Source of the DNA: Ochromonas danica
Taxonomy: Eukaryota; Sar; Chrysophyceae; Chromulinales; Chromulinaceae
Assembly (NCBI GenBank): GCA_015146655.1
Contig: VKHL01000055.1
Location: 1-64,000 of the forward strand
Direction: 5' to 3'
Length of the DNA: 64,000 bases
Positions 13,655-64,000 of this stretch are shown piece by piece (positions within the stretch are counted from its first letter, which is position 1; each line of letters begins with the position of its first letter). The notes under the pieces were generated by a model that ran no database searches, was not told the DNA's origin, and was given only the letters and a program-made list of their open reading frames with translations. The translations under genes and the position numbers were made by a program.

Positions 13655-14707
13655 CTAGATCTTATTATCCATGAACCGAAACATAATGTTTTTCTTCTTC
13701 TTCTTCTTCCTCCTCTTGGCTTCACTCACTGATTTTTGAGCGACATCCAATGTGACCATGTGATGATATATTCTCAATGCACTTGCATATGAGAGTGACA
13801 TATCATCCGGAGAAACATGGTACAGGTTAGTAATATGCCTGCAGATGTCCACGTATATTGGAGTCCCCACACATTTTGCAACACTTGGACTTTCGCAGCC
13901 TTTACTGCCCATCTTAGAAAAGCATTCAGCAGAACGCCCAGGCTTCATGCCATGGAAATGCAAAATAGCAGTGCTGTTGGAGTTCCCCCAATAGGGTTTC
14001 CAATTGAAAGCAGCTGGAAGAAGTTCAGCCACATGAAGCTCGTCTTTGAAATAAGAAATTATATATCCCTGGTCATATGCATCGAATTTAAAGTTAGCAT
14101 TCTTCCCATGCTCAATGAAACCTGTGCGGTGCTCATTCATGGCAGATATGTTTATATAAAGTACACCAGAATTAGCTATTTCATCTTTTGTCATCTCTCC
14201 TCCTAATGAGATCACTTTGGGCTTTGGTAAATCATTAATATTGAAGGAAGGGTAGAATAGGACGTCACAATCTGTGTAAAGAATATAGTCGAAGTTGATT
14301 GTGGACCTTAGAGAAGGAGGAAGTGTCTTAGCCAACTCGGGTACAATAGAAGGAATATCCAAACGAAGGAAAGCGGGATGATTGAGAATTGGGAACATGC
14401 TGATGACCACTGGATCCACAAATGTCAAGTTACGGTGGAGAATGAGGATCTTGTCAGATTCGGCCAGTTTGGTCAGCCAATTGGGAAGAGGGACATTTTC
14501 ATGGCTTCCACCCAACATAAGAACAGGGAAGAGCTGATCGGAATGCAGTAGCAGCGCAGAATTAAGTGCAGCTTTGACGAAAGAGAGGTATGAAGAAGCA
14601 TGGTCGTTAATCTGTGTGGCCATAAACCACAGAGTCTTCTTTCCAGCACACTCTGCCACAAGAACAAGAATCAACAACAACACAAAGAGCAAAGTCAGCC
14701 CCCTCAT
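13655..14707 (-). CDS. Secreted GT8-like glycosyltransferase, copy A
   Basis: A 350-residue protein from the ATG at 14707. The N-terminal signal peptide MRGLTLLFVLLLILVLVAEC lacks a basic stem, so it may be cleaved rather than act as a Golgi anchor. Features of a GT8 (glycogenin/galactinol synthase-like) fold are KKTLWFMATQ as the first strand, LDIPSIVPELAKTL, the metal-binding DxD in YTDCDVLFYPSF (near residue 150), IANSGVLYIN, YDQGYIISYF and the C-terminal AILHFHGMKP, whose His is usually a second metal ligand. The likely role is transfer of a sugar from a nucleotide donor to a glycan or glycoprotein in the secretory pathway; donor and acceptor are unknown. A Lys-rich C-terminus ends the protein. 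It is the first of three intact paralogs. Confidence 0.82.
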   Translation of the reverse strand: MRGLTLLFVLLLILVLVAECAGKKTLWFMATQINDHASSYLSFVKAALNSALLLHSDQLFPVLMLGGSHENVPLPNWLTKLAESDKILILHRNLTFVDPVVISMFPILNHPAFLRLDIPSIVPELAKTLPPSLRSTINFDYILYTDCDVLFYPSFNINDLPKPKVISLGGEMTKDEIANSGVLYINISAMNEHRTGFIEHGKNANFKFDAYDQGYIISYFKDELHVAELLPAAFNWKPYWGNSNSTAILHFHGMKPGRSAECFSKMGSKGCESPSVAKCVGTPIYVDICRHITNLYHVSPDDMSLSYASALRIYHHMVTLDVAQKSVSEAKRRKKKKKKNIMFRFMDNKI

Positions 14708-14838
14708 CAACTACCGGTCAAATCTATTTCGAGCTCTTGCTGTGGTTATACTCCATGTTAGGCCAGGCCGAGGGGGTTTGTGTATGACGTCAACTGTCGG
14801 ATGTCGGTCGTTGTGCGTGGTGGAGCAGCCGGGGAAGT

Positions 14839-16705: not shown

Positions 16706-17767
16706 TTATCCACGAACCGAATCATGATATTCTTTCGTGCTCTTCTTCCTCTTCTTCTTCCTCTTGGCTTCACTCGCAGATTTTTGAGCGACATCCAACG
16801 TGACCATGTGACGATATATTTTCAATGCACTTGCATATGAGAGTGACATATCATCCGGAGAAACATGGTATAGGTTAGTAATATACCTGCAGATGTCCAC
16901 GTATATTAGAGTCCGCACACATTTTGCAACAATTGGACTTTCACAACCTTTACTGTCCATGTTAGAAAAGCATTCAGCAGAACGCCTTGGCTTCATGCCA
17001 TGGAAATGCAAAATAGCAGTTTTGTTGGAATTCCCCCAATAGGGTTTCCAATTGAAAGCAGCTGGAAGAAGTTCAGCCACATGAAGCTCGTCTTTGAAAT
17101 AAGAAAGCAAATATCCCTGGTCATATACATCGAATTTAAAGTTAGCATTCTTCCCATGCTCGATGAAACCAGCCATATGCTTCCTCATGGCCTTTATGTT
17201 CATGTAAAGTACACCAGAATTAGCGATTTCATCTTTCTTCATCTCCCCTCCCAATGAGATCACTTTGGGCTTTGGTAAATCATTCAAGTTGAAGGAAGGG
17301 TAGAATAGGACGTCACAATCTGTATAAAGAGCATAGTCGAAGTCGATCGTGGAACTCAGAGAAGGAGGAAGTGTTTTAGCCAACTCGGGTACAATAGAAG
17401 GAATATCCAAACGAAGGTAAGCGGGATGATTGAGAATGGGATACTTGTTGATGACCTCTCGATCCACAAATGTCAAGTTACGGTGGAGAATGTGAATCGT
17501 GCCAGATTCGGCCAGTTTGGTCAGCCAATCAGGTAGAGGCACTGCCTTCCTGCCTTGACGATGCCTTCCTCCCAACATAAGAACAGGATAGAGCTGATCG
17601 GAATGCCGCAGTAGTGCAGAATTAAGCGCAGCTTTGACGAAAGCAAGGTATGAAGCAGCATGCTCATTAAACTGAGTGGCCATAAACCACAGAGTCTTCT
17701 TTCCAGCGCACTCTGCCACAAGAACAAGAATCAACAACAACACAAAGAGCAAAGTCAACCCCCTCAT
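16706..17767 (-). CDS. Secreted GT8-like glycosyltransferase, copy B
   Basis: A 353-residue paralog of copy A with the same signal peptide, the DxD motif YTDCDVLFYPSF, DQGYLLSYF and AILHFHGMKP. It differs from copy A by a short insertion after LMLGG (RHRQGRKAVPLPDW) and a different C-terminus (KRKKKRKKSTKEYHDSVRG). All expected catalytic residues are present and the frame is open throughout, so it is probably functional. It reads away from a PRXL2 pseudogene at 17950. Confidence 0.82.
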   Translation of the reverse strand: MRGLTLLFVLLLILVLVAECAGKKTLWFMATQFNEHAASYLAFVKAALNSALLRHSDQLYPVLMLGGRHRQGRKAVPLPDWLTKLAESGTIHILHRNLTFVDREVINKYPILNHPAYLRLDIPSIVPELAKTLPPSLSSTIDFDYALYTDCDVLFYPSFNLNDLPKPKVISLGGEMKKDEIANSGVLYMNIKAMRKHMAGFIEHGKNANFKFDVYDQGYLLSYFKDELHVAELLPAAFNWKPYWGNSNKTAILHFHGMKPRRSAECFSNMDSKGCESPIVAKCVRTLIYVDICRYITNLYHVSPDDMSLSYASALKIYRHMVTLDVAQKSASEAKRKKKRKKSTKEYHDSVRG

Positions 17768-17858
17768 CAACTGCCGGTCAAATCAATGCAATCAACTTCG
17801 AGCTCTTGCTGTGGTTTTCATTTTGCGGTGCGTGGCGGGGTTTGGCTTGTGGGTAAAT

Positions 17859-19532: not shown

Positions 19533-20540
19533 TTATCTATGAGCCGAAACATTATGTCCACTCACTGATTTTAGAGCGACATCCAATGTGACCATGTGAC
19601 GATATATTCTCAATGCACTTGCATATGAGAGTGACATATCATCCGGAGAAACATGGTACAGGTTAGTAATATGCCTGCAGATGTCCACGTATATTGGAGT
19701 CCCCACACATTTTGCAACAATTGGACTTTCACAACCACTACTGTCCATGTTAGAAAAGCATTCAGCAGAACGCCTAGGCTTCATGCCATGGAAATGCAAA
19801 ATAGCAGTTTTGTTGGAATTCCCCCAATAGGGCTTCCAATTGAAAGCAGCTGGAAGAAGTTCAGCCACGTGAAGCTTGTCGTGGAAATAAGAAAGCAAAT
19901 ATCCCTGGTCAAATACAGGGAATGAAAAGTTAGCATTCTTCCCATGCTCAATGAAACCAGCCATATGCTTCCTCATGCCCTTTATATTCATGTAAAGCAC
20001 ACCAGAATTAGCGATTTCATCTTTCTTCATCTCTCCTCCTAATGAAATCACTTTGGGCTTTGGTAAATCATTAATGTTGAAGGAAGGGTAGAATAGGACG
20101 TCACAATCTGTGTAAAGAATATAGTCGAAGTCTATATTGGACTTCAGAGAAGGAGGAAGTGTTTTAGCCAACTCGGGTACTATAGTAGGAATATCCAAAC
20201 GAAGGTAAGCGGGATGATTGAGAATGGGATACTTGTTGATGACCTCTCGATTCACAAAAGTCAAGTTACGATGGAGAATGTGAATCGTGCCAGATTCGGC
20301 CAGTTTGGTCAGCCAATCAGGTAGAGGCACATTTTGATGATGGCTACCACCCAACATAAGAACAGGGAAGAGCTGATCGGAATGCAGCAGCAGCGCAGAG
20401 TTAAGTGCAGCTTTGACGAAAGCGAGGTATGAAGCAGCATGCTCATTAAACTGAGTGGCCATAAACCACAGAGTCTTCTTTCCAACACACTCTGTCACAA
20501 GAACAAGAATCAACAACACAAAGAGCAAAGTCAGCTTCAT
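19533..20540 (-). CDS. Secreted GT8-like glycosyltransferase, copy C
   Basis: A 335-residue paralog with a slightly shorter signal peptide (MKLTLLFVLLILVLVTEC). The catalytic features are conserved: YTDCDVLFYPSF, IANSGVLYMN, FDQGYLLSYF and AILHFHGMKP. The C-terminus ends soon after MVTLDVALKSV, lacking the Lys-rich tail of copies A and B. The open frame with mostly conservative differences suggests selection for function. Its upstream region is separated from the PRXL2 remnant by a transposon. Confidence 0.82.
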   Translation of the reverse strand: MKLTLLFVLLILVLVTECVGKKTLWFMATQFNEHAASYLAFVKAALNSALLLHSDQLFPVLMLGGSHHQNVPLPDWLTKLAESGTIHILHRNLTFVNREVINKYPILNHPAYLRLDIPTIVPELAKTLPPSLKSNIDFDYILYTDCDVLFYPSFNINDLPKPKVISLGGEMKKDEIANSGVLYMNIKGMRKHMAGFIEHGKNANFSFPVFDQGYLLSYFHDKLHVAELLPAAFNWKPYWGNSNKTAILHFHGMKPRRSAECFSNMDSSGCESPIVAKCVGTPIYVDICRHITNLYHVSPDDMSLSYASALRIYRHMVTLDVALKSVSGHNVSAHR

Positions 20541-23069: not shown

Positions 23070-24242
23070 TCACCACATACTGCCGTCCGATACCAACAAA
23101 TCCTTGCCTCGCTGGAGCATCTCCTGCAACGACAAAAGAGAAAGATGATAGACACTCGGCCATTCTCGACGATTGTAGTCAAACAAGACTGCATGTCTGG
23201 CTAATGCATCGCGCATCGCTGCTAACTTTTTCCAATCTCGAGAAAGATCGTAAACTGTCTGCACAATGCGATCTATCTCACGAGGAAAGTTTATTTCGTC
23301 TTTATAGAAGATCAAAGAGAAGGAAGACCAGTTGATCCATTCATAAAAGGGAAGCTGAGCAGGATACGTGACGAAGATCACGGGAATGCAGCCTCGTAAA
23401 ATGACTTTATAAAGTCTCGCAGTGGAGGAAGTGTCACCAGGCAAGACAAAGCAAAACTGAGCGCTTCCCAACGCATCATTAAACTCCGTCGTACTCATGC
23501 TGTTGGAAATGAGAGATCTTTCTAAGTTCATCGACTGCAAATGAGAATACAGATGAGTGTGATACAGGCGATAACTATCTCCCAGGCCAGCAGGCGATTC
23601 CCTCAGGGCAGCCAACAGGACAAACTGCCGTTTCTCACTCGCGGAACTTGCCAGTCCGATGTCCGACTTGTTGATAGCATGAGGAATGAAGACATCTCGA
23701 CCATTCGGTGTGAGCATTTCATCGGATCGAAAGTGATGAATATCTTGAGCATATAGCAAGGAGTCCTTCTGATGCAAGGACATGGTCTCCAAGGGAGAGG
23801 GGTCCACGCAAAATGTCTTGTCCATAGTGAAATAGGTCATGCGGGTGAGGGGATGATTCCAAACAAGGTCGCCAATGAATGCATCCACCTTCTCCCACGC
23901 AGAGGTGGAGAGAGGATCGTGAGCGCCAAATAGAGGGAGGTAGAAAAGATCCACTTCCACTTCCCGCTGATCATCAGAAGAGAGACTCTCAACTCGATGA
24001 GAGTAGTGGTAGCACAAGAAGCAATAGAACAGAAGGTCTTGTCCATGAGGCGAGAGGGTGGTGGGATCGTTACAGTCAAGGGAGGAGGGCAGCTGTGTCT
24101 TGGGGGAGGGCAAGATGAAGACAGAAGGCAAGACCAAAGAACCACCATCCACCCTCCACACTTTCGAATCCGTAGATTCATGAGAATAAACAGGTATGAA
24201 GGTCGAGAAAATAAAGAAGAGAAATGTGATAAAGCAATTCAT
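23070..24242 (-). CDS. Exostosin-like glycosyltransferase (GT47)
   Basis: A 390-residue protein from the ATG at 24242, chosen because it starts a clear signal peptide or anchor (MNCFITFLFFIFSTFIPVYS); the frame stays open 45 codons upstream without supporting features. Exostosin-family landmarks are EVEVDLFYLPLFG, DVFIPHAINK, KRQFVLLAALRESPAG, FCFVLPGDTSSTARLYKVIL, RGCIPVIFVTYPAQLPFYEW and INWSSFSLIFYKDE. These form the C-terminal GT-B nucleotide-sugar site. Members elongate heparan-sulfate chains in animals and xyloglucan, xylan or pectin side chains in plants and algae. Here the acceptor is unknown. It is divergently placed to the GT92-like gene at 24534, and a decayed paralog lies at 44985-45590. 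Confidence 0.85.
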   Translation of the reverse strand: MNCFITFLFFIFSTFIPVYSHESTDSKVWRVDGGSLVLPSVFILPSPKTQLPSSLDCNDPTTLSPHGQDLLFYCFLCYHYSHRVESLSSDDQREVEVDLFYLPLFGAHDPLSTSAWEKVDAFIGDLVWNHPLTRMTYFTMDKTFCVDPSPLETMSLHQKDSLLYAQDIHHFRSDEMLTPNGRDVFIPHAINKSDIGLASSASEKRQFVLLAALRESPAGLGDSYRLYHTHLYSHLQSMNLERSLISNSMSTTEFNDALGSAQFCFVLPGDTSSTARLYKVILRGCIPVIFVTYPAQLPFYEWINWSSFSLIFYKDEINFPREIDRIVQTVYDLSRDWKKLAAMRDALARHAVLFDYNRREWPSVYHLSLLSLQEMLQRGKDLLVSDGSMW

Positions 24243-24533
24243 GTTTGGTGAAATAAAAATGCGATGCCAACAATCGCGCATCACAACAAAAAAGACCGAA
24301 GACCGACCTCCGGAATTTACTAACAAAACTGGTCTCCTGTGGAAACCTCCGAAATGTCTGCACCACTGTGTGGTCACACCTGCTGCTGGACCGCTTCACT
24401 TCTTTGAGTTGAAAGGTGTGCTGGCTGACTGCAAGATTCTGACTTCAAACCACCACCACAGAGACGCTCCGGGCATCAGCGCGGCAGCATCACGGCCGAC
24501 TGCTTTTTACCATCAAGACTCGAAGAAGTATTG

Positions 24534-25622
24534 ATGATGCGGATTTCCCCATTTTGTGTGATCATCTGGATCGCTGGATTAATTTCGGTAAATGTTGCCA
24601 AAGCAACAACAAAAACAACCTTCGAAAATGAGATTTGCATCATGACCAAAGTAAAATCACTTGCAGAAACTAACAGTTGTCAATTTATTGAATGGATAGA
24701 GTATCATTTCCTTTTGGGCGTGAATAAAATATTTGTGAATGATGATTGTTCAGAGGAACCATTGTTCAAGCAGATTTTACATTATTATTCTGTTTTGGGT
24801 CAAGTTGTGATTGCTTCCGAACAATCGAACTGCACTAACCACATACCGGATGAAGGAGGACTGATGAAAAGAACGTTTCAGAATTATGGCCACAGATGTG
24901 AGTGGATGGCAGTTATTGACATGGACGAGTATATCACTTTTGTTAATGAAAACGTCGAAGTCACTTTCAGTGAGCGATTGAAACAAGCAAACACTTCAAT
25001 CATCCGCATGCCATGGTTCGTTATGGGTTCTGAAGGCCATGAAAAGCGGCCAAAAGGCGTTACAATAGAATCGTTCATACACGGAGCCATGGATCAGCAT
25101 CATCATTGCAAAACAATTGCAAGGTCAGAAGAGGTTGACGAGTGGCCATTTCAGCATGTTCCTCGAGTGAAGAGGCCACATGAAATGATGCTGGGTATGA
25201 ACATGACAAGAAAAGAATACTTTCATAGCCCTCGATTGCACAAAGATGAAGTGACAGTGGGGAAAGACACAGCCAATGGCAATGCTATCATCGTGCCGAG
25301 AAGTGACATTTACTTGAAGCACTTCATTTTTCTGTCTTGGGAACAGTACAAACAACAACGCGGTGCATACAAAAAGATAGCTTCGGGAGTTAGTAATCTT
25401 GTTTGGGGTGTGAATCCAAGAGAGAAATGGCTCATTGGAAATCAAACATACTTCACCAACACCCTGTCAGGTGGTTTCACAAACTTCATGGCGAACAAGT
25501 TAAAATTGCGGCTTCACGAACGTCATTTACCTGCTACAGTTGGTTCAATTGGGAAAGAAAGTGGTGAAGTTCAACAATCGAAATCAAGTGTGTTTGATGT
25601 TTGTGCGAAGTATTGGTGGTGA
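24534..25622 (+). CDS. Secreted GT92/GT2-like glycosyltransferase, copy 1
   Basis: A 362-residue protein beginning MMRISPFCVIIWIAGLISVN, a signal peptide. The GT-A fold of family GT92 (DUF23-like) is visible: EICIMTKVKSLAETNSCQFI, EWIEYHFLLGVNKIFVNDDC, CEWMAVIDMDEYI with the metal-binding DMDE (about residue 125), MPWFVMGSEGHEKRP and, later, DIYLKHFIFLSWEQY, which supplies a conserved His. Animal GT92 enzymes add galactose to core fucose; the donor here is unknown. It differs from copy 2 by about a dozen residues, mostly in the last third, and both are open. It reads divergently from the exostosin gene. Confidence 0.84.
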   Translation: MMRISPFCVIIWIAGLISVNVAKATTKTTFENEICIMTKVKSLAETNSCQFIEWIEYHFLLGVNKIFVNDDCSEEPLFKQILHYYSVLGQVVIASEQSNCTNHIPDEGGLMKRTFQNYGHRCEWMAVIDMDEYITFVNENVEVTFSERLKQANTSIIRMPWFVMGSEGHEKRPKGVTIESFIHGAMDQHHHCKTIARSEEVDEWPFQHVPRVKRPHEMMLGMNMTRKEYFHSPRLHKDEVTVGKDTANGNAIIVPRSDIYLKHFIFLSWEQYKQQRGAYKKIASGVSNLVWGVNPREKWLIGNQTYFTNTLSGGFTNFMANKLKLRLHERHLPATVGSIGKESGEVQQSKSSVFDVCAKYWW

Positions 25623-30749: not shown

Positions 30750-31128
30750 GTGAAGACATTAATGGAAAAGACTGCTTTTCAATCGCCATGGCCAGTCTTA
30801 CCTTTCCGTCCTGTGCTCATCAAATGTAATCAAATCCATTTCATTCCGAAGATTTGACAGTAGTACCGGTGGCTATCTTCGAGATTGTTTGATTTGGAAC
30901 AAGTCCGGTGGTGGCATGAATTCGATGTCTCCTTTGGCATTTCGTGTTAACTTAACAGTACGGAGTGAGTGCTGACGCACGCCCGTGCTTGTCTGTGGTT
31001 CCGGGAAGAGGAGGTGGATTCCACTCCAGCAGCACCACAGCGGAGTGGGAGAACTGAGAGAAAGGAGCAGCAGAGAGACCCACTATTCAACTATTTACCA
31101 TTCATCATCAAGTCTCGAAGAAGTATTG

Positions 31129-32217
31129 ATGATGCGGATTTCTCCATTTTGTGTGATCATCTGGATCGCTGGATTAATTTCGGTAAATGCTGCCAAAGCA
31201 ACAACAAAAACAACCTTCGAAAATGAGATTTGCATCATGACCAAAGTAAAATCACTTGCAGAAACTAACAGTTGTCAATTTATTGAATGGATAGAGTATC
31301 ATTTCCTTTTGGGCGTGAATAAAATATTTGTGAATGATGATTGTTCAGAGGAACCATTGTTCAAGCAGATTTTACATTATTATTCTGTTTTGGGTCAAGT
31401 TGTGATTGCTTCCGAACAATCGAACTGCACTAACCACATACCGGATGAAGGAGGACTGATGAAAAGAACGTTTCAGAATTATGGCCACAGATGTGAGTGG
31501 ATGGCAGTTATTGACATGGACGAGTATATCACTTTTGTTAATGAAAACGTCGAAGTCACTTTCAGTGAGCGATTGAAACAAGCAAACACTTCAATCATCC
31601 GCATGCCATGGTTCGTTATGGGTTCTGAAGGCCATGAAAAGCGGCCAAAAGGCGTTACAATAGAATCGTTCATACACGGAGCCATGGATCAGCATCATCA
31701 TTGCAAAACAATTGCAAGGTCAGAAGAGGTTGACGAGTGGCCATTTCAGCATGTTCCTCGAGTGAAGAGGCCACATGAAATGATGCTGGGTATGAACATG
31801 ACAAGAAAAGAATACTTTCATAGCCCTCGATTGCACAAAGATGAAGTGACAGTGGGGAAAGACACAGCCAATGGCAATGCTATCACCGTGCCGAGAAGTG
31901 ACATTTACTTGAAACACTTCATTTTTCTGTCTTGGGAACAGTACATACAACAGCGCGGTGCATACAAAAAGATAGCTTCGGGTGCCAGTAATCATGTCTG
32001 GGGGGTGAATCCAAGAGAGAAATGGCTCATTGGAAATCAAACACACTTAACCAAGACTCTGTCAGGTGGTTTCACAAACTTCATGGCGAACAAGTTAAAA
32101 TTGCGGCTTCACGAACGTCATTTACCTGCTACAGTTGGTTCAATTGGGAAAGAAAGTGGTGAAGTTCAACAATCGAAATCAAGTGTGTTTGATGTTTGTG
32201 CGAAGTATTGGTGGTGA
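31129..32217 (+). CDS. Secreted GT92/GT2-like glycosyltransferase, copy 2
   Basis: Same length (362 residues) and start (MMRISPFCVIIWIAGLISVN) as copy 1, with the same DMDEY metal site and FVMGSEGHEKRP stretch. Differences cluster in the C-terminal third, for example KIASGASNHVWG for KIASGVSNLVWG and NQTHLTKTLSGG for NQTYFTNTLSGG. That part is identical to the fragment at 38420-38870, suggesting gene conversion among copies. The frame stays open upstream to 30985, but the signal peptide supports the start at 31129. Confidence 0.84.
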   Translation: MMRISPFCVIIWIAGLISVNAAKATTKTTFENEICIMTKVKSLAETNSCQFIEWIEYHFLLGVNKIFVNDDCSEEPLFKQILHYYSVLGQVVIASEQSNCTNHIPDEGGLMKRTFQNYGHRCEWMAVIDMDEYITFVNENVEVTFSERLKQANTSIIRMPWFVMGSEGHEKRPKGVTIESFIHGAMDQHHHCKTIARSEEVDEWPFQHVPRVKRPHEMMLGMNMTRKEYFHSPRLHKDEVTVGKDTANGNAITVPRSDIYLKHFIFLSWEQYIQQRGAYKKIASGASNHVWGVNPREKWLIGNQTHLTKTLSGGFTNFMANKLKLRLHERHLPATVGSIGKESGEVQQSKSSVFDVCAKYWW

Positions 32218-54910: not shown

Positions 54911-55444
54911 CTTCAGTTCAAAGAAGGTGAGGTAGTTATGGATCGTGGTTGATGCAGTGTGGCAGCTTTTGCGACGAATGCTTCATCTATGCTTCAACAA
55001 ATGCTTCCGCTTGTTAGCATTTATGCATTGTGATAATAGTCGCATGTGATATTCATACAATGTTACTCGACACATAGACCAATAGTTCGAATTTGTTGTA
55101 GTGTTGGTTGTTAATCAACCATGTTTTAGAATGGCGCAATACGGGTCTTATGGCATATGTTTGGTTTTGTTGGAATGTGCCTTTTATACTATGGCGAGGA
55201 AGTTGATTGTTCAGATTTTCTCCGTGGTCATGAATTAATAGCAGATCCTGTTACTGTAATTATAGCCTAACTACATTATTGCAATTGAAGTACTGTTTTC
55301 TCACAAAGAGTATGGGAAGAGAGAAATAGTTGCTTTGGTTGGACCTAAACAACAGAGTATTCTTGATGGAACTCCAGCAAGGTTCAACGATCTAATGAGT
55401 AGTGACGATCTAGTTGCTGACAGTTCCAGAGTCCTCCGTATGAG
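54911..55444. other. Intergenic, no gene recognised
   Basis: AT-rich spacer between the GT8 pseudogene and the first long-inverted-repeat element. No features. Confidence 0.45.
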
Positions 55445-57259
55445 CCCAAAAGGTCGCGAGTTTCTCAAAAGGTCGCGAGTTTCTGCGCGGGGAGCCTCCA
55501 CTGAAACGGACGTTTTGAGTGTGAATTTCGCATAAAAGAAGGCCTTGATTCTCATGAACCATCGCCAAATATCACAATTACTAGTCATTTTTACCGTGAA
55601 GGTGCATGCAATCTATCGATTCGTGGACTCAGATTAGCTGAGTCCACGAATCGATGGATTGCATGAACCTTCCACCAGTATCGCACATGGTTCAGATCAT
55701 TGTCACATGGATGAAGGCAAAGAAAGGTAAGAACGCGTAGATATTATAAAGATATAATGACAAATAACATGTATCCTGGCTAATATGTGACTTGATGTGT
55801 GACAGATATCCTTCGCAGCTTTGATTGCTGCTGCCTCCTCGTCGCGCTCGCTCTTCGTCATCGATTGCTTGCGACGCATCTCTTCTTCTTTTTCAGCCAA
55901 TTTCTTTGCTTCTTTGGCTTTATGTTTTCCAACTTGCTGGAGAACGGCTCTGGCTCTTTGCTTCTCCACCTGGACATTCAGATGGGCTTCTCCACATTCA
56001 CTTTGCTTCTCCACTCATATGACATGGTGGCCACATATGACAAAGCCTTCTTGAGCGATCTTATCTGATGTAACCGCCTTGTTACAGAGAACTCGACAAA
56101 GGCGAATGATTCCTTCGCGCAAGAGAACTTTGTGTCCAGAAACATTTGTATCGTCCTGAAAACGGTTGCGTAGATCTTGGATATGAGCGTCAAGGGCATC
56201 ACTCAATGTGCGATTGGCCACAATTGCTTGTTGATTCAAATCCTTTTTAAAGCTAACATCAAATTGTTGATGTTGACTTGTCTTAGATGGTTCGCCTTTC
56301 ATATAGTCCACTCCAACATCAGAAAATTCTTGCAAACAACATTCAACTTCAAAATTCAAGGCTTGTTGGTGAAGAAGAATGATGGCTTCTTCATCACTAT
56401 GGGAAAATGTTCTCAGCTCATTGCTCTACAAATTACACGACGAATCAGAATTAAGTTTAAAGCATACAACTCTTTCAAATGAACATAATAACATAATATA
56501 ATAAGGATAGGGATAATAACATTCAAGAAGAAATGTTCCCACATCGCAGCGTTTCCAGATCGATCTTTTGCTGCTTAACGCCAACCATATAGCGTATCTG
56601 TCACTGCGCTAAGCTTCATGCCTTCGGCCCTTGATCCATAGAACTCGTTCTCAGGAGTCAACAGCGATGATCAACAACAACAGCCCTGAGTGGAGAAGCA
56701 AAGTGAATGTGGAGAAGCCCATCTGAATGTCCAGGTGGAGAAGCAAAGAGCCAGAGCCGTTCTCCAGCAAGTTGGAAAACATAAAGCCAAAGAAGCAAAG
56801 AAATTGGCTGAAAAAGAAGAAGAGATGCGTCGCAAGCAATCGATGACGAAGAGCGAGCGCGACGAGGAGGCAGCAGCAATCAAAGCTGCGAAGGATATCT
56901 GTCACACATCAAGTCACATATTAGCCAGGATACATGTTATTTGTCATTATATCTTTATAATATCTACGCGTTCTTACCTTTCTTTGCCTTCATCCATGTG
57001 ACAATGATCTGAACCATGTGCGATACTGGTGGAAGGTTCATGCAATCCATCGATTCGTGGACTCAGCTAATCTGAGTCCACGAATCGATAGATTGCATGC
57101 ACCTTCACGGTAAAAATGACTAGTAATTGTGATATTTGGCGATGGTTCATGAGAATCAAGGCCTTCTTTTATGCGAAATTCACACTCAAAACGTCCGTTT
57201 CAGTGGAGGCTCCCCGCGCAGAAACTCGCGACCTTTTGAGAAACTCGCGACCTTTTGGG
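55445..57259. mobile_element. Long-terminal-inverted-repeat (foldback-type) element A
   Basis: 1815 bp. The arms 55445-56018 and 56687-57259 (about 570 bp) are near-perfect inverted copies around a unique core of about 670 bp. Ends read CCCAAAAGGTCGCGAGTTTC, followed by a second AAAAGGTCGCGAGTTTC. The arms encode a charged stretch EKQSECGEAHLNVQVEKQRA...KKLAEKEEEMRRKQS. The core encodes, on the minus strand, SKTSQHQQFDVSFKKDLNQQ and IRLCRVLCNKAVTSDKIAQE in frame with that stretch except for one TGA. No transposase was recognised, so it is likely mobilised in trans. Element B at 61373 is almost identical. Confidence 0.85.
55605..55665. repeat. Subterminal hairpin inside the left arm of element A
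   Basis: 28-base arms CATGCAATCTATCGATTCGT... and ...GATGGATTGCATG pair at 27 of 28 positions around a 5-base loop (ATTAG). The same hairpin occurs in the right arm (about 57038-57098) and in element B. In B's right arm the hairpin is shortened. Confidence 0.9.
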
Positions 57260-57450
57260 CTCACACAGGAGTTCCGAGTTCGAGTTGTTGTTTTTCAGAG
57301 CTGTTAGGTTACCACACATCATAACAATAACTAACACTCGCAACGTGAATGTGGAAGAGCAGCTCCAGCGAGCAAGCCATCCAACAACAACAGATCCAAC
57401 TGTCCTAACTGAGAGAAGACCTGTCATTTCAAAAGAGAAAAAAGGGCATC
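57260..57450. promoter_or_regulatory. Putative promoter/5' region of the methyltransferase-like gene
   Basis: About 190 bases between element A and the ATG at 57451. No definite boxes were recognised. The element end lies within this short upstream region and could influence expression. Confidence 0.3.
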
Positions 57451-58179
57451 ATGGTATTAATCCTTCTATTCTTCCTTCTACTTGCTGGATTCTGTTATGC
57501 TGATATAGTTGAAAAAGCACCAACTAATGGTGCGATGGTCTGTAAAAAGAGAATGAATGAATCCGAACTATCTGAAACTGAGAAAAATATCGGAAATATT
57601 AATTTAGCGATGTCTCCCAACGAGAAGGTTCTGCTCTATCGTCAGTTAAAGGAAGCTAAGCTTTATTTTGAGTTTGGATGTGGGGGATCGACTATTCTGG
57701 CTTGTGAGAGCTTTCCCAACTTACAAATTCGCTCCGTAGACTCCAGCTCTGAGTGGATCAATATGGTACAAAATAGTAGCTGTATTTCGAAAGCTGTATC
57801 TGATAATAGAATCCATATGACATGGATTGATTTTGGAAAGCTTGAATTATGGGGCTATCCTGCCACGGAGGCGAAAAAACACAATTGGCCGCTTTACAGT
57901 GAAACTATAAAATCGGCAGGTGCAGACGCTGATTTTGTTCTCGTTGATGGACGATTCCGCATTTCCTGCTTTCTTAAAACACTATTATATAATTATAGCC
58001 CGTCGTTGAAAATTGGAATTCATGATTTTTTCCCACGAGCTGATGTTTATGGTTCTGTCCTTAAGTTTGCTGATCCATATGACTGCATTGATTCTTTCCT
58101 CATATTCAAACCAAAAGCTGATATCAACAAGGATGAATTGCTACAAGAGATTCAACTTCGTAGTCATGTTCAACATTAA
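57451..58179 (+). CDS. Secreted SAM-dependent methyltransferase-like protein
   Basis: 242 residues with a signal peptide, MVLILLFFLLLAGFCYA. A class I methyltransferase fold is indicated by AKLYFEFGCGGSTILAC (motif I, E-x-G-x-G-x-S, SAM binding), then IRSVDSSSEWINMVQ, where Asp would bind the ribose. DADFVLVDGRFRISCFL is motif IV with a D-G-R-F/Y-R pattern found in several sugar- and polysaccharide-associated methyltransferases. IGIHDFFPRADVYGSVL follows. A lumenal location suggests methylation of a glycan, but substrate assignment is inference. No introns. Confidence 0.75.
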   Translation: MVLILLFFLLLAGFCYADIVEKAPTNGAMVCKKRMNESELSETEKNIGNINLAMSPNEKVLLYRQLKEAKLYFEFGCGGSTILACESFPNLQIRSVDSSSEWINMVQNSSCISKAVSDNRIHMTWIDFGKLELWGYPATEAKKHNWPLYSETIKSAGADADFVLVDGRFRISCFLKTLLYNYSPSLKIGIHDFFPRADVYGSVLKFADPYDCIDSFLIFKPKADINKDELLQEIQLRSHVQH

Positions 58180-59979
58180 GGTGTTGTAGTGTAGGGCTTT
58201 ACCACAATTATTCTAGCATAACCCTTTGGTATCGTCTTTTCCAGTTGGTTGAGTAATTTATTTCAACAGCAAGTGAGTTTTAGTTGGTTTTATTGAGGAG
58301 GATGGAAGATAGTAAAAGAACTTTAATCCGTATCAATCCCATCTCTATTGTAGATTAACCCTTGCATCTTCAATAATATGATGTAACATAACTAAGAACT
58401 GCGTCCAAATGATCTCATTCGCTCCATTTGTTTTAAACAAGCAATGAAAGAGATTTTCAAAATGGGGAGGAACTTGAAATTTACAAACACCAGACCACAA
58501 AGCTGGGGGGATATCTTGAGCGGCAGATATGCTGGAGAAAAGCAACTGCTGAAGGACCGAGACGGCCAGCGGTAAGGTGCAATGTTTACGCCAGAAGAAG
58601 GAAGTTGTTCCATTTGCAACAAGCCAACTTACACAGTACAGTAGCCAACACAAGGGAATTCTTGTTTATACGTTGAACACAGTACTGTCGAGGAGCGATA
58701 TCTTTAATATCGGTATGAACCCGTTCGGAACTTAAAACCATTACTTCCTCAGTGAACATTACAGAAAAAGGAAGGGGGAAGGGAGGAGGAGAGCTTCAAC
58801 CAAGAAACTCTTCATGCCTTGTGTCTGGGAAGGGAAGTGTCTGTCTTGTGTGAAGATTGTTTGACAGAAAGTTCAAAGCCACCAAGAAAGGAACGAATAT
58901 GGTGCCAGGGATCCTTGATAAACGACAGTGAGAAAGAGAGGAGAACGATAGAGGAATATGTGATTTCGTGATCGGTGCGTTTTCTTCTTTAGGCGTAACT
59001 AATGACCAACAAGAATGAATGGCTTCGTGGAGATTTTTGTCTTTTCCCGTAAGATGCTGGGTAGCGACCCGTAGAGGTCCGAGGGTGGCCCAAAGATGCT
59101 TTCGTGATCTTCACTTTCATTTCAATAGGTAGCTATAGGACCTCTATGGGTATCGAAGATCATAATCAATTGAATACCAAAAACCTTTGTCAGTTCTTCT
59201 AAGGTATCGTCGATGACCCCTTCTGAGGCGGTCCATCGTTGACCATGGCAGGATAACAGGGATTCATTTGACACATCTTCAGGATTTTCTTCACGGTCTC
59301 CATCAGGGTGATTTTCTTGGTCCTCCTGATAGTTTTCTTGATATTCTTCAGATTGATTAGCGGAGGGAGGGTAGGACGGATTTGGATAGTCTTCACTACC
59401 GTCCCCGCTCTCCTACTCCACATGATAGCGCTTCTTATGACCTTGATCATGACAAGAAATGACTTTTCCCACAAATTGATTGACCTTTGAAGATTCCCTA
59501 AGACTCTGCAACCGATTTGCAACTCCGACCTAGGAACCTTTCGTAGAACATTTCTTAATAAATACTGATCGTAATTGACAATAACAACAACTAAAATGTA
59601 ATTCGCAAGGATCTATTTACAATAAATATATATATATATGAGAAGATGCAAAAATGTTCACATGAATCGAACAAAAAGTTCGCGTAGAGTTCAAAGGTCC
59701 TTAGGTCATTATTTCTCCGTCTTTGCTGACCATACATTCTCTACTCTTAATTACAGTATTCCTAGTAGAAAGGAGTATGGCAAATAGACTATCTGATCCA
59801 CTATCTTCTTTTATCTTTTGCCTCACACAACTCGATTTTGGGACCTAATTGCCACCGTGGAATCTGTATGGAACACATATGGAATCCGGAATGCACGTTC
59901 AGGATTTATAATCATGTGATAGTATTAACTATTACATCTTCGTATGCGCTAAAAGACACAAAGATTATTCATTTTCTGA
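58180..59979. other. Intergenic with dispersed repeats and relics
   Basis: 58817-58860 is an inverted scrap of the 3' end of the 12323 gene (CTTGTGTCTGGGAAGGGAAG). 58870-59260 is the mate of the repeat at 37870-38410. On the minus strand near 59380-59540 a frame reads QFVGKVISCHDQGHKKRYHV, resembling the start of a Tudor-like domain. After a stop it continues with an acidic Ser/Glu-rich stretch; it is probably a relic. A (TA)n run lies near 59625. Confidence 0.55.
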
Positions 59980-61008
59980 TTAATACGTCGTAGAGTTGTG
60001 AAGAAGAAATTGTAGTAATGCGATGTTCAACTCTCGGTAGATCGAAAGATCTCGAAAATGATAGTGATCAAAGTAAGCTTCCTTTGTATTGACCAGATGT
60101 TCCGTTAAAGCAAAGGTATCAAAGAGTAGGAAACCTGATGAAGAAAGCTGGTTGCGAAATTCTTCGTCTTCATATTGTACTCCTCCATTTAGTTCTGTTG
60201 TTGTAGCTTTCCAAATGGCACATTTGGTTGCTTTACTCACGGCTGCCTGGAGACGAGGTAGATATGATGATTGACTAACTAGGTGGTGACTCCAGAACCC
60301 GTGGTTGAAGATCAGATAGTCAGGCTGGAAAGGTACAAGCTTATGAGTGATGAAGTCATGGGCATCAGCGTAGCTCTGATTTGCATCAGGGCTGAAGGAT
60401 AGAAGATTAGGTTGGCCCATACAGTTAGCAGAGAATTCTCTCAGCGTGGGGAAGTCTCTGCTCAACAGGATAGGGTTGGGAGGGAAAAAGCTATTCAATG
60501 TGATCGTCAGATTGAGTCCATAGTGATAGAAATAACGATTTTCACGACAAGAATGAAATACAACATCGTGTCGATAGGCATCTACTATTTCATGGCATCC
60601 CATACGCTTGTTCGTAGAGCGTAAAAATCCATCCCAGCTGCCAAATTCCTTCTCTCGAATCATGCTAGGCAGACCTGGATCTTCTAATCATTGTCCTGAT
60701 GAAAGAAACCAAGCCAATGATAAGTATTGATATCGTGTAAGAGAGTCACCGATGAAACTGACTCTCTTGTTACGAAGAAATCCTAACCACTTCAAATCTA
60801 TTCCATTTCTCAGAGGGTGATCTTTGAATGCAATAATGAAAGAATCTTGCAATGATCCACTTTGAAAGTGCCAAGGGTAATCTTGTATAATACCTTCAAC
60901 AGTTATCAACCAGGAAAAGTTGAGAAGAGATACTAGCAGAGTAACATAGAGAGAGCAAGTCATAAGTAACCACTGCCTCCCGCCACGGAATCCAACCTCC
61001 AATGTCAT
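59980..61008 (-). pseudogene. PC-esterase/TBL-like glycan acyltransferase with one in-frame TGA
   Basis: The frame from the ATG at 61008 starts with a signal anchor (WLLMTCSLYVTLLVSLLNFS), then RVSFIGDSLTRYQYLSLAWF, the GDS motif block of PC-esterase/TBL/Cas1-type acyltransferases. It meets a TGA after SSGQ at 60688. The same frame resumes without shift (LEDPGLPSMIREKEFGSWDG) and continues to YLIFNHGFWSHHLV and AYFDHYHFRDLS, whose D-x-x-H is the second half of the Ser-Asp-His triad. Without the stop it would be about 342 residues, near family length. Such enzymes O-acetylate wall or glycoprotein sugars. All other genes here use TGA as a stop, so recoding is unlikely; recent inactivation or a sequence error is favoured. 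Confidence 0.75.
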
Positions 61009-61372
61009 GGCAGGAAAAGAGTTTTCAAGGTGAGGTTTGAAGCGTTGGCTGCTGTCTTGCGGCCACCCCTCCTACGGCGCTGTCACTCCCTCCACCTTCT
61101 GTTGTGGTTGTTTTTGTTGTTTTGTCTGTTTGAGATTTCGGCCACGTCAGAGCTGCTGTGGAGGAAGGTCAGCCAAAATCGGCGGAATTCCACTTTGGGG
61201 TTTTCGTGTTTTCGAGCGTCATTGCAGAGAAAAAGAGTGCAAAGTCGGTCTCGCATTTCCCCTGACTTTTGGGAAATCGTGAATTGTCAGTTGTGAATCA
61301 AGAAGCACTACTTTTGAGAAACAAATTTGGGTATCCACGCCAAGCGGAAAGAGTCCAACAGCTGCGTGGAAA
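61009..61372. other. Spacer before element B
   Basis: Short frames only, some hydrophobic, without homologous neighbours. It is the upstream region of the PC-esterase-like gene on the minus strand. Confidence 0.4.
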
Positions 61373-63164
61373 CCCAAAAGGTCGCGAGTTTCTCAAAAGG
61401 TCGCGAGTTTCTGCGCGGGGAGCCTCCACTGAAACGGACGTTTTGAGTGTGAATTTCGCATAAAAGAAGGCCTTGATTCTCATGAACCATCGCCAAATAT
61501 CACAATTACTAGTCATTTTTACCGTGAAGGTGCATGCAATCTATCGATTCGTGGACTCAGATTAGCTGAGTCCACGAATCGATGGATTGCATGAACCTTC
61601 CACCAGTATCGCACATGGTTCAGATCATTGTCACATGGATGAAGGCAAAGAAAGGTAAGAACGCGTAGATATTATAAAGATATAATGACAAATAACATGT
61701 ATCCTGGCTAATATGTGACTTGATGTGTGACAGATATCCTTCGCAGCTTTGATTGCTGCTGCCTCCTCGTCGCGCTCGCTCTTCGTCATCGATTGCTTGC
61801 GACGCATCTCTTCTTCTTTTTCAGCCAATTTCTTTGCTTCTTTGGCTTTATGTTTTCCAACTTGCTGGAGAACGGCTCTGGCTCTTTGCTTCTCCACCTG
61901 GACATTCAGATGGGCTTCTCCACATTCACTTTGCTTCTCCACTCATATGACATGGTGGCCACATATGACAAAGCCTTCTTGAGCGATCTTATCTGATGTA
62001 ACCGCCTTGTTACAGAGAACTCGACAAAGGCGAATGATTCCTTCGCGCAAGAGAACTTTGTGTCCAGAAACATTTGTATCGTCCTGAAAACGGTTGCGTA
62101 GATCTTGGATATGAGCGTCAAGGGCATCACTCAATGTGCGATTGGCCACAATTGCTTGTTGATTCAAATCCTTTTTAAAGCTAACATCAAATTGTTGATG
62201 TTGACTTGTCTTAGATGGTTCGCCTTTCATATAGTCCACTCCAACATCAGAAAATTCTTGCAAACAACATTCAACTTCAAAATTCAAGGCTTGTTGGTGA
62301 AGAAGAATGATGGCTTCTTCATCACTATGGGAAAATGTTCTCAGCTCATTGCTCTACAAATTACACGACGAATCAGAATTAAGTTTAAAGCATACAACTC
62401 TTTCAAATGAACATAATAACATAATATAATAAGGATAGGGATAATAACATTCAAGAAGAAATGTTCCCACATCGCAGCGTTTCCAGATCGATCTTTTGCT
62501 GCTTAACGCCAACCATATAGCGTATCTGTCACTGCGCTAAGCTTCATGCCTTCGGCCCTTGATCCATAGAACTCGTTCTCAGGAGTCAACAGCGATGATC
62601 AACAACAACAGCCCTGAGTGGAGAAGCAAAGTGAATGTGGAGAAGCCCATCTGAATGTCCAGGTGGAGAAGCAAAGAGCCAGAGCCGTTCTCCAGCAAGT
62701 TGGAAAACATAAAGCCAAAGAAGCAAAGAAATTGGCTGAAAAAGAAGAAGAGATGCGTCGCAAGCAATCGATGACGAAGAGCGAGCGCGACGAGGAGGCA
62801 GCAGCAATCAAAGCTGCGAAGGATATCTGTCACACATCAAGTCACATATTAGCCAGGATACATGTTATTTGTCATTATATCTTTATAATATCTACGCGTT
62901 CTTACCTTTCTTTGCCTTCATCCATGTGACAATGATCTGAACCATGTGCGATACTGGTGGAAGGTTCATGCAATCCATCGATTCGTGGACTCAGCTAATC
63001 TGAGTCCACGAATCGATGAACCTTCACGGTAAAAATGACCAGTAATTGTGATATTTGGCGATGGTTCATGAGAATCAAGGCCTTCTTTGCTCAAAACGTC
63101 CCTTTCAGTGGAGACTCCCCGCGCAGAAACTCGCGACCTTTTGAGAAACTCGCGACCTTTTGGG
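61373..63164. mobile_element. Long-terminal-inverted-repeat (foldback-type) element B
   Basis: 1792 bp. The offset to element A stays constant at 5928 bases from the left end to about 63010, with no difference noticed by eye. The right arm lacks 9 and 14 bases relative to A, at the hairpin and at TTATGCGAAATTCACAC. Same ends, same core, same interrupted minus-strand frame. Flanking sequences differ from A, so these are two insertions rather than one duplicated segment. Such identity implies very recent movement or homogenisation. Confidence 0.87.
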
Positions 63165-63326
63165 TTTCTCGAACACTTGAACCGGGCCTTTAACTTGTCA
63201 CCCAACACACCAGCTTTTCAATGTTTCACGTTTCAATGACAAGTTAAAGGCATGGTTTTGCATCCTCTGGTTTGCTGGTGATGGTCACATGAATCAACTC
63301 GAGCTGTTGAGAGAAAGTCAAAAGAA
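63165..63326. other. Short upstream region of the terminal glycosyltransferase gene
   Basis: It contains an inverted pair: GGCCTTTAACTTGTCA (63185) and TGACAAGTTAAAGGCATGG (63237). These form a stem of about 14 bases with a loop of about 38 bases. No other signals recognised. Confidence 0.5.
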
Positions 63327-64000
63327 ATGACAGTTTACCTTCTTACTCTAGCCTTGTTCTTTTTCACTATCGCATCCTCTTTACCTTGCTGTTCTACTGA
63401 GAAGATCTATGACCAAGTATGCCAAAGGCTCATGCTTCCAAATAGCCGTCAGAAACACTTGAGTCGGACTCCCGATATTTTCAACGCCACCTTTTATGCA
63501 AGCAAATATTCGAGCAATACATCATCAGTGGAAAGCGATGCAGGTATATTGAAGGAACATTTCACTTCCATAGGAATGAAAAGAGGTTATTTACCACATG
63601 ATGGAAAGAAGATTGTTAAAATCGTGGTTAATACAAGAAATGAATGGCCTTTAATTCGAGACTGGGTGTTGTATCATGGTGAAATGATCGGATTTGAGCA
63701 TCTTTACATTGTCGACAATAGTGATGAGGAAGAGGTTATCAATTTCCTGCATAAAGTGGCAGACAAGTTTGGTGTCAATGTCTTCTTTACGAAGTCTTTT
63801 CTGACGAGTGTTTACGAAGATGTGCATTGTATCTTTCGTGCATTGAAAGGAAAAAGTGATCTACTAATGAAGGTTGACTCAGATGAATTCTTGGTAGTGC
63901 ACACCACACCGAACAATAAACTCTCCGAAAATCGCAACATGGGTATTTCTTTAGATGTTGCAAAATATTTGGAAACATTGACTTTTGATGGGTGTCATTA
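63327..64000 (+). CDS. Secreted GT2/GT92-like glycosyltransferase, 3' end beyond the window
   Basis: The frame from the ATG at 63327 is open to the last base (224 complete codons). It starts with the signal peptide MTVYLLTLALFFFTIASSLP. The GT-A fold is visible: KIVKIVVNTRNEWPLIRDWV, VLYHGEMIGFEHLYIVDNSD and LLMKVDSDEFLVV, the last carrying the metal-binding D-S-D-E of Glyco_tranf_2_4/GT92 enzymes. It is only distantly related to the GT92-like copies at 24534 and 31129. Element B ends about 160 bases upstream of its start. Confidence 0.78.
   Translation, partial: MTVYLLTLALFFFTIASSLPCCSTEKIYDQVCQRLMLPNSRQKHLSRTPDIFNATFYASKYSSNTSSVESDAGILKEHFTSIGMKRGYLPHDGKKIVKIVVNTRNEWPLIRDWVLYHGEMIGFEHLYIVDNSDEEEVINFLHKVADKFGVNVFFTKSFLTSVYEDVHCIFRALKGKSDLLMKVDSDEFLVVHTTPNNKLSENRNMGISLDVAKYLETLTFDGCH

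Follow-up and report, generated by a model that had tools for sequence, protein, structure and literature searches.

Long-inverted-repeat elements of Ochromonas danica as probable non-autonomous, foldback-type derivatives of a low-copy DNA transposon

Foldback (FB) and Mutator/foldback (Tm1) elements have long inverted arms able to fold back and a small or decayed core, and the classical FB and Mutator types make target duplications of ~9 bp. Galileo, a foldback-like element of the P superfamily in Drosophila, is described as having long arms of variable length, which in some copies contain tandem repeats, and as recruiting internal sequence, including the final piece of its open reading frame (ORF), into these arms (PMC4168063, PMC3573991); chimeric Galileo copies without matching target duplications are likewise described there (PMC3573991). 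Here, we analyze two elements with a comparable architecture, A (55445-57259) and B (61373-63164), which lie 4.1 kb apart in a window of 64,000 nucleotides (nt), positions 1 to 64,000 of contig VKHL01000055.1 (C55) in the 31.2-Mb, 337-contig assembly GCA_015146655.1 of Ochromonas danica. We propose that A and B derive from a low-copy cut-and-paste DNA transposon as non-autonomous elements of the foldback type, a reading that includes the transposase, ends, and arm copying discussed below and to which we assign a probability of about 0.78. The family is another case of the known foldback kind, better explained than at first reading.

Element A is built from two 573-bp arms that are identical at 573/573 bases and enclose a core of 669 bp (Table 1). 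The core of B is identical to that of A, as is its left arm, but its 550-bp right arm differs by five substitutions and by deletions of 9 and 14 bp. Overall, the two elements are 98% identical, with all differences confined to positions 1644-1765 of the 1815 in A, which correspond to the outer right arm of B. The chance that all seven changes would fall within the outer 172 bp is ~7e-8, a post hoc figure that assumes seven independent, evenly spread events; because two substitutions are found at the deletions or close to them, fewer events may in truth have occurred. Each end of each element carries two end units at a spacing of 19 bp, and the end motif, AAAAGGTCGCGAGTTTC, occurs eight times in the window when ≤3 mismatches are allowed (0.18 expected by chance), with all eight occurrences exact and located at the ends of A and B. 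Arms of ~570 bp, a shared core of ~670 bp, and doubled end motifs had been noted in a first-pass annotation of this DNA, and these measurements bear them out. The same annotation took the core to be unique to A and B; a genome search with the core instead recovered an 83%-identical version on contig C11 and part of one on C236.

Searches with A, its core, the end motif, and the C11 element identified at least three complete copies and at least four one-armed fragments in the assembly, both counts being lower bounds. The complete copies are A, B, and C11:245635-247777 (2143 bp, with arms ~6% different from those of A), and the fragments are found on C230, C236, C21, and C122. With ≤2 mismatches allowed, the end motif has 20 matches genome-wide; 16 are exact and all of these belong to family copies, and the other four, located elsewhere, each have two mismatches, with five matches returned by a reversed control. 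The number of end units per end ranges from 0 to 3 among the copies (3/3 in C11, 2/2 in A, 2/2 in B, one in C230 and in C122, none in C236; the C21 fragment has lost its end), yet within each complete copy both ends have the same number. No family relatives were detected on viral contigs by end motif or by protein.

Apart from B, with its changed outer right arm, arm sequences agree more closely within copies than between them. The arms of C11 are identical over the first 376/376 bases, whereas the arms of A and C11 share 94% identity. Together with the equal unit numbers at both ends, this identity within copies suggests that one arm is copied onto the other. Both arms of A and the left arm of B also contain a 75-nt hairpin, present in shortened form in the right arm of B; folded as DNA, the hairpin of the A left arm reaches -38.2 kcal/mol relative to a shuffle mean of -7.5 (z -13.4). 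Half of this hairpin is retained in C122. By our reading of the alignment, the hairpin in C230 and C21 is oriented opposite to that in A, C11, and C236. Because hairpins could also flip by ordinary recombination, we draw no mechanism from orientation alone.

In all three complete copies, the four bases outside the terminal CCC at one end are the inverse of those at the other. Among the eight ends that keep CCC, GT is found at -7/-6 in seven, the exception being the right end of B, and A is found at -2 in all eight. These shared bases make it more likely that the element ends in CCGTNGRAR, and, judged from this alignment of ends, the true termini are probably ~9 bp further out, as CCGTNGRAR-CCC. 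The elements delimited by the first-pass annotation are therefore real, but their terminal repeat probably extends ~9 bp beyond the boundaries that it gave. The 17-mer of the end sequence had no occurrence in the literature searched. At the CCGTNGRAR boundary, the C11 element has AATT on both sides (AGGTAATT-element-AATTGCAA), and a paralogue of its left flank (67% identity), located further upstream on this contig, has AGGTAATTGCAA, with a single AATT. A 4-bp target duplication is thus likely for C11 on the basis of these sequences. A duplication of 4 bp is also characteristic of the Sola superfamily. In the C230 fragment, AATT adjoins the one end present. Comparison of occupied and unoccupied sites provided such a paralogous site for C11, whereas for A and B, only left-flank paralogues were found, with no junction.

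The cores of A and B encode, in antisense, a decayed transposase-like piece that is matched by a 143-residue piece of C11 at 83% amino acid identity. Where the first-pass annotation had seen no recognizable transposase, the cores of A, B, and C11 thus probably hold a decayed piece of one, although it has no Pfam match above the cut-off. The protein-gene pieces of the C11 copy are broken by stops and frame breaks, as are those of the A/B core, and an intact gene is present in 0/3 complete copies. The 143-residue piece matches a gene on C81 at 29% identity (E 3e-7). When clean C81 sequence is used, one of its exons has 29% identity to C11 (E 5e-5) and 30% to A/B (E 0.013), and a local comparison aligns two pieces of C81 with C11 at 27% and 29% identity. 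A, C11, and C81 all retain the sequence KG.PS.TS. Aspartates are found in HSD/HGD, and C11 has a second aspartate (QPLD) with 37 residues between, a spacing that, read by motif rather than by database match, resembles that between the final two catalytic residues of DDE transposases. In both A and B, a C-terminal coding piece is found in both arms, whereas C11 has it in a single place just inward of the right arm, which suggests that the A/B arms grew inwards over the end of the gene. The distant relative of the remnant gene lies in several open pieces within C81:1-9000 (L052), near duplicated stretches of a second gene.

These features are best explained by a model in which a full ancestral element had terminal repeats ending in CCGTNGRARCCCAAAAGGTCGCGAGTTTC on either side of a gene for a DDE-type transposase and probably generated target duplications of 4 bp. 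As this gene decayed, it would have left core relics that are mobile only when transposase is supplied from elsewhere. Copying of one arm onto the other, by gene conversion or by repair of a folded intermediate, would keep the long arms identical, and the same copying would have lengthened them inwards over the 3' end of the gene and allowed the 19-bp end units to grow or shrink at both ends together.

Among described systems, Galileo offers the nearest parallel, since its arm growth by repeats and by recruitment of the ORF end, as reported in the papers cited above, is closely matched in A and B. Unlike in Galileo, where the duplication is 7-8 bp with the consensus GTANTAC, the best-supported duplication here is the 4-bp AATT of C11, and the repeats are 19-bp units at the very end of the element. 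No P or THAP domain match was found in the remnant pieces, which lack the N-terminal part, or in the C81 relative. The family appears by analogy to work like Galileo; we do not claim membership because the duplication length differs and the transposase has no family match. Long inverted arms and a small or decayed core are likewise shared with FB and Tm1, but no ~9-bp duplication is seen at A, B, or C11. The family would provide, in a eukaryotic genome, a compact example of how foldback arms lengthen and are exchanged, as has been described for Galileo in flies, and it agrees with the idea that recombination within non-autonomous elements repeatedly gives rise to long arms of this kind.

Several observations weigh against this account. 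No autonomous copy of the family was found in the assembly. The unoccupied paralogue matches the C11 right flank beyond AATTGCAA weakly, with 8/500 shuffles as good, and A and B have no target duplication at the new boundaries. AGTT in A and AACA in B repeat if 10 and 3-4 extra left bases, respectively, are allowed, which chance could also produce. A direct-repeat scan around the C11 ends recovers AATT but also the longer chance repeat CTCCA, so short direct-repeat matches alone prove little; the longest exact direct repeats around the ends are 6 (A), 4 (B), and 5 (C11) bases. No remnant piece has a Pfam match above the cut-off, nor does the C81 relative, and the few subthreshold matches are to unrelated families. 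DDE_1 genes occur at five other places in the genome, and a profile comparison of the remnant with the one such protein compared fails. The predicted fold of the remnant is uninformative (predicted local distance difference test, pLDDT, 46). The ratio of nonsynonymous to synonymous substitution rates (dN/dS) between the A and C11 pieces is 0.74 over 127 codons, indicating little constraint, and we read this value as mostly decay of the remnant gene. Given that gene conversion between neighbors would yield the same near-identity of A and B, that neither has a clean duplication, and that no intact gene is present, the suggestion in the first-pass annotation that the family is moving now does not follow. 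Its broader view of a non-autonomous foldback or long-terminal-inverted-repeat family stands, in keeping with three complete copies at unrelated sites, the fragments, and the arm identity within A and over the first 376 bp of C11.

Insertion without duplication into a palindrome was our initial reading. Such a mechanism is described for Spy of the PHIS superfamily, which inserts into AAATTT without duplication (PMC4482050), and joining the flanks at the CCC/GGG boundary would give the targets TGAGCTCA for A, GAAATTTC for B, and GGAGCTCC for C11. The inverted bases outside CCC in 3/3 complete copies agree with it, in a window where 8-base palindromes start at 251/63992 positions, as does the lack of a clean direct duplication in A and B; the joined B site would even contain the AAATTT described for Spy. 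The symmetric bases are, however, part of a longer end motif (GT at -7/-6 in 7/8, A at -2 in 8/8) and are better read as terminal repeat, and C11 has AATT on both sides where its paralogue has one. In addition, the joined centers of A and C11 would be GAGCTC, unlike the Spy target as it is described, and no known transposase domain scores above the cut-off in the remnant. We dropped this reading once the longer motif at the ends and the site of C11 were taken into account, and we consider it improbable. A relationship to pogo or Tc1-mariner elements (DDE_1, DDE_3), which duplicate TA, was also rejected: there is no profile match, the comparison with one DDE_1 protein fails, and the bases adjoining the ends are not TA on both sides. 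Three DDE_1 fragments elsewhere in the genome (L036, L037, and L038, on C24, C121, and C2) score almost equally and contain a single TGA apiece, as might be expected of copies of a separate transposon family.

The lack of clean duplications in A and B would also be explained if recombination between arms had swapped their flanks, the case reported for chimeric Galileo copies, making the two elements chimeric or rearranged. This would be a history of A and B rather than an alternative identity for them, and we regard it as possible, if somewhat short of an even chance. The repeat in the left flank of A continues past the insertion point in two paralogues (C72 versus C49: score 117, 0/500 shuffles), and the sequence to the right of A does not resume it (34 and 207 of 500 shuffles score equally well). 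Moreover, the outer right arm of B alone carries all of the A/B differences. The arms of A are nevertheless identical to each other, and the downstream stretches of the paralogues match the window in short pieces, none of the 20 best listed adjoining B. A simple inversion between A and B was rejected on similar grounds, as the continuation of the A left-flank repeat was not found beside B. Far less credible is a single recent insertion that was locally duplicated, or an assembly artifact. Although A and B are 98% identical and 4.1 kb apart on one contig, no match is shared among the flanks of A, B, and C11 (1 kb each; 836 bp to the right of B), the sole flank match being an inverted repeat within the right flank of B itself, and A and B are therefore not one duplicated block. 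Their outermost bases also differ, the changes are limited to the right arm of B, and related copies, including a third complete one, are found on five other contigs.

Five of the seven loci (A, B, C11, C122, and C236) have the ATG of an open frame of 158-659 codons located 99-225 bp beyond one end, in a search that covered both sides of the three complete copies and one side of the four fragments; the frame beside B leaves the window after 224 codons. No comparable frame was found near C230 or C21 on the one side examined. As a background, 11% of window positions outside long frames have the ATG of a ≥150-codon frame within 230 bp on either side, a distance threshold that was set after the distances were known. 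Several copies are just upstream of genes and could affect promoters. Whether these features together define a new transposase lineage, comprising the A/B/C11 remnant and its C81 relative with no Pfam match, CCGT ends, equal-number 19-bp units, a hairpin in two orientations, and insertion favored ~100-225 bp upstream of genes, is a more speculative matter, and we think it unlikely. If such a lineage does exist, the hairpin flip and matched ends would suggest that each move passes through folded or hairpin DNA, with one arm serving as the template for the other.

Table 1. Positions of elements A and B and of their component features in the window
Feature	Position	Strand	Note
Element A with outer 9-10 bp of terminal repeat (CCGTATGAG ... 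CTCACACAGG)	55436..57269	.	end extended by comparing 8 ends
A left arm, 573 bp	55445..56017	+	
A left, two 19-bp-spaced end units	55448..55483	+	
75-nt hairpin, A left arm	55598..55672	+	fold -38.2 kcal/mol, z -13.4
C-terminal coding piece, apparently drawn into A left arm	55811..55960	-	
A core	56018..56686	.	same sequence as B core; C11:246085-246732 (reverse) is 83% identical
Transposase-like remnant, A (HSDEEAII...KGEPSKTSQHQQFD...)	56018..56422	-	no Pfam match
Upstream coding piece of A remnant	56497..56658	-	weak match to C81 gene, one stop
A right arm, 573 bp	56687..57259	-	identical to left arm
C-terminal coding piece, A right arm	56747..56893	+	
Same 75-nt hairpin, A right arm	57032..57106	-	
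A right, two 19-bp-spaced end units	57221..57256	-	
Element B with outer terminal bases (CGTGGAAA ... TTTCTCG)	61365..63171	.	
B left arm	61373..61945	+	identical to A arm
B left, two end units	61376..61411	+	
75-nt hairpin, B left arm	61526..61600	+	
C-terminal coding piece, B left arm	61739..61888	-	
B core	61946..62614	.	
Transposase-like remnant, B	61946..62350	-	identical to A remnant
B right arm, 550 bp	62615..63164	-	two deletions, five substitutions, outer part
C-terminal coding piece, B right arm	62675..62821	+	
Hairpin, B right arm	62960..63025	-	9-nt deletion
B right, two end units	63126..63161	-	

The genes next to the two elements begin 191 bp downstream of A (57451-58179, +) and 162 bp downstream of B (63327-64000, +), and both open, in our reading, with hydrophobic, signal-peptide-like stretches. 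The latter has a glycosyltransferase family 2 match and is one of three genes in the window, with 24531-25622 and 30985-32217, that match glycosyltransferase family 2/92, although it is above the cut-off for family 2 alone. A GT47 exostosin-like gene is located at 23070-24377. A match to a silicon-transporter family, above its cut-off, hints at a silicifying or related alga, although one bacterial control also gave a match, below the cut-off. Between B and its downstream gene, 63180-63257 contains an inverted repeat, CCTTTAACTTGTCA ... TGACAAGTTAAAGG. In the left flank of B, parts of 61181-61329 match eight other places in the genome at 73-94% identity, all ending before the insertion point, and this segment is either another dispersed repeat or conserved upstream sequence. 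The sequence AATTCCGTNGRRR was considered as a genomic repeat or promoter motif and rejected: it occurs 25 times genome-wide (3 at element ends), the reversed control 20 times, and its counts in the window are those expected by chance. Three frames of similar length at ~3-kb spacing are found at 13655-14710, 16706-17770, and 19533-20540 (all -); short pieces of the outer left flank of A match inside each of them, and short pieces of the C72 paralogue of that flank match ~300 bp below each.

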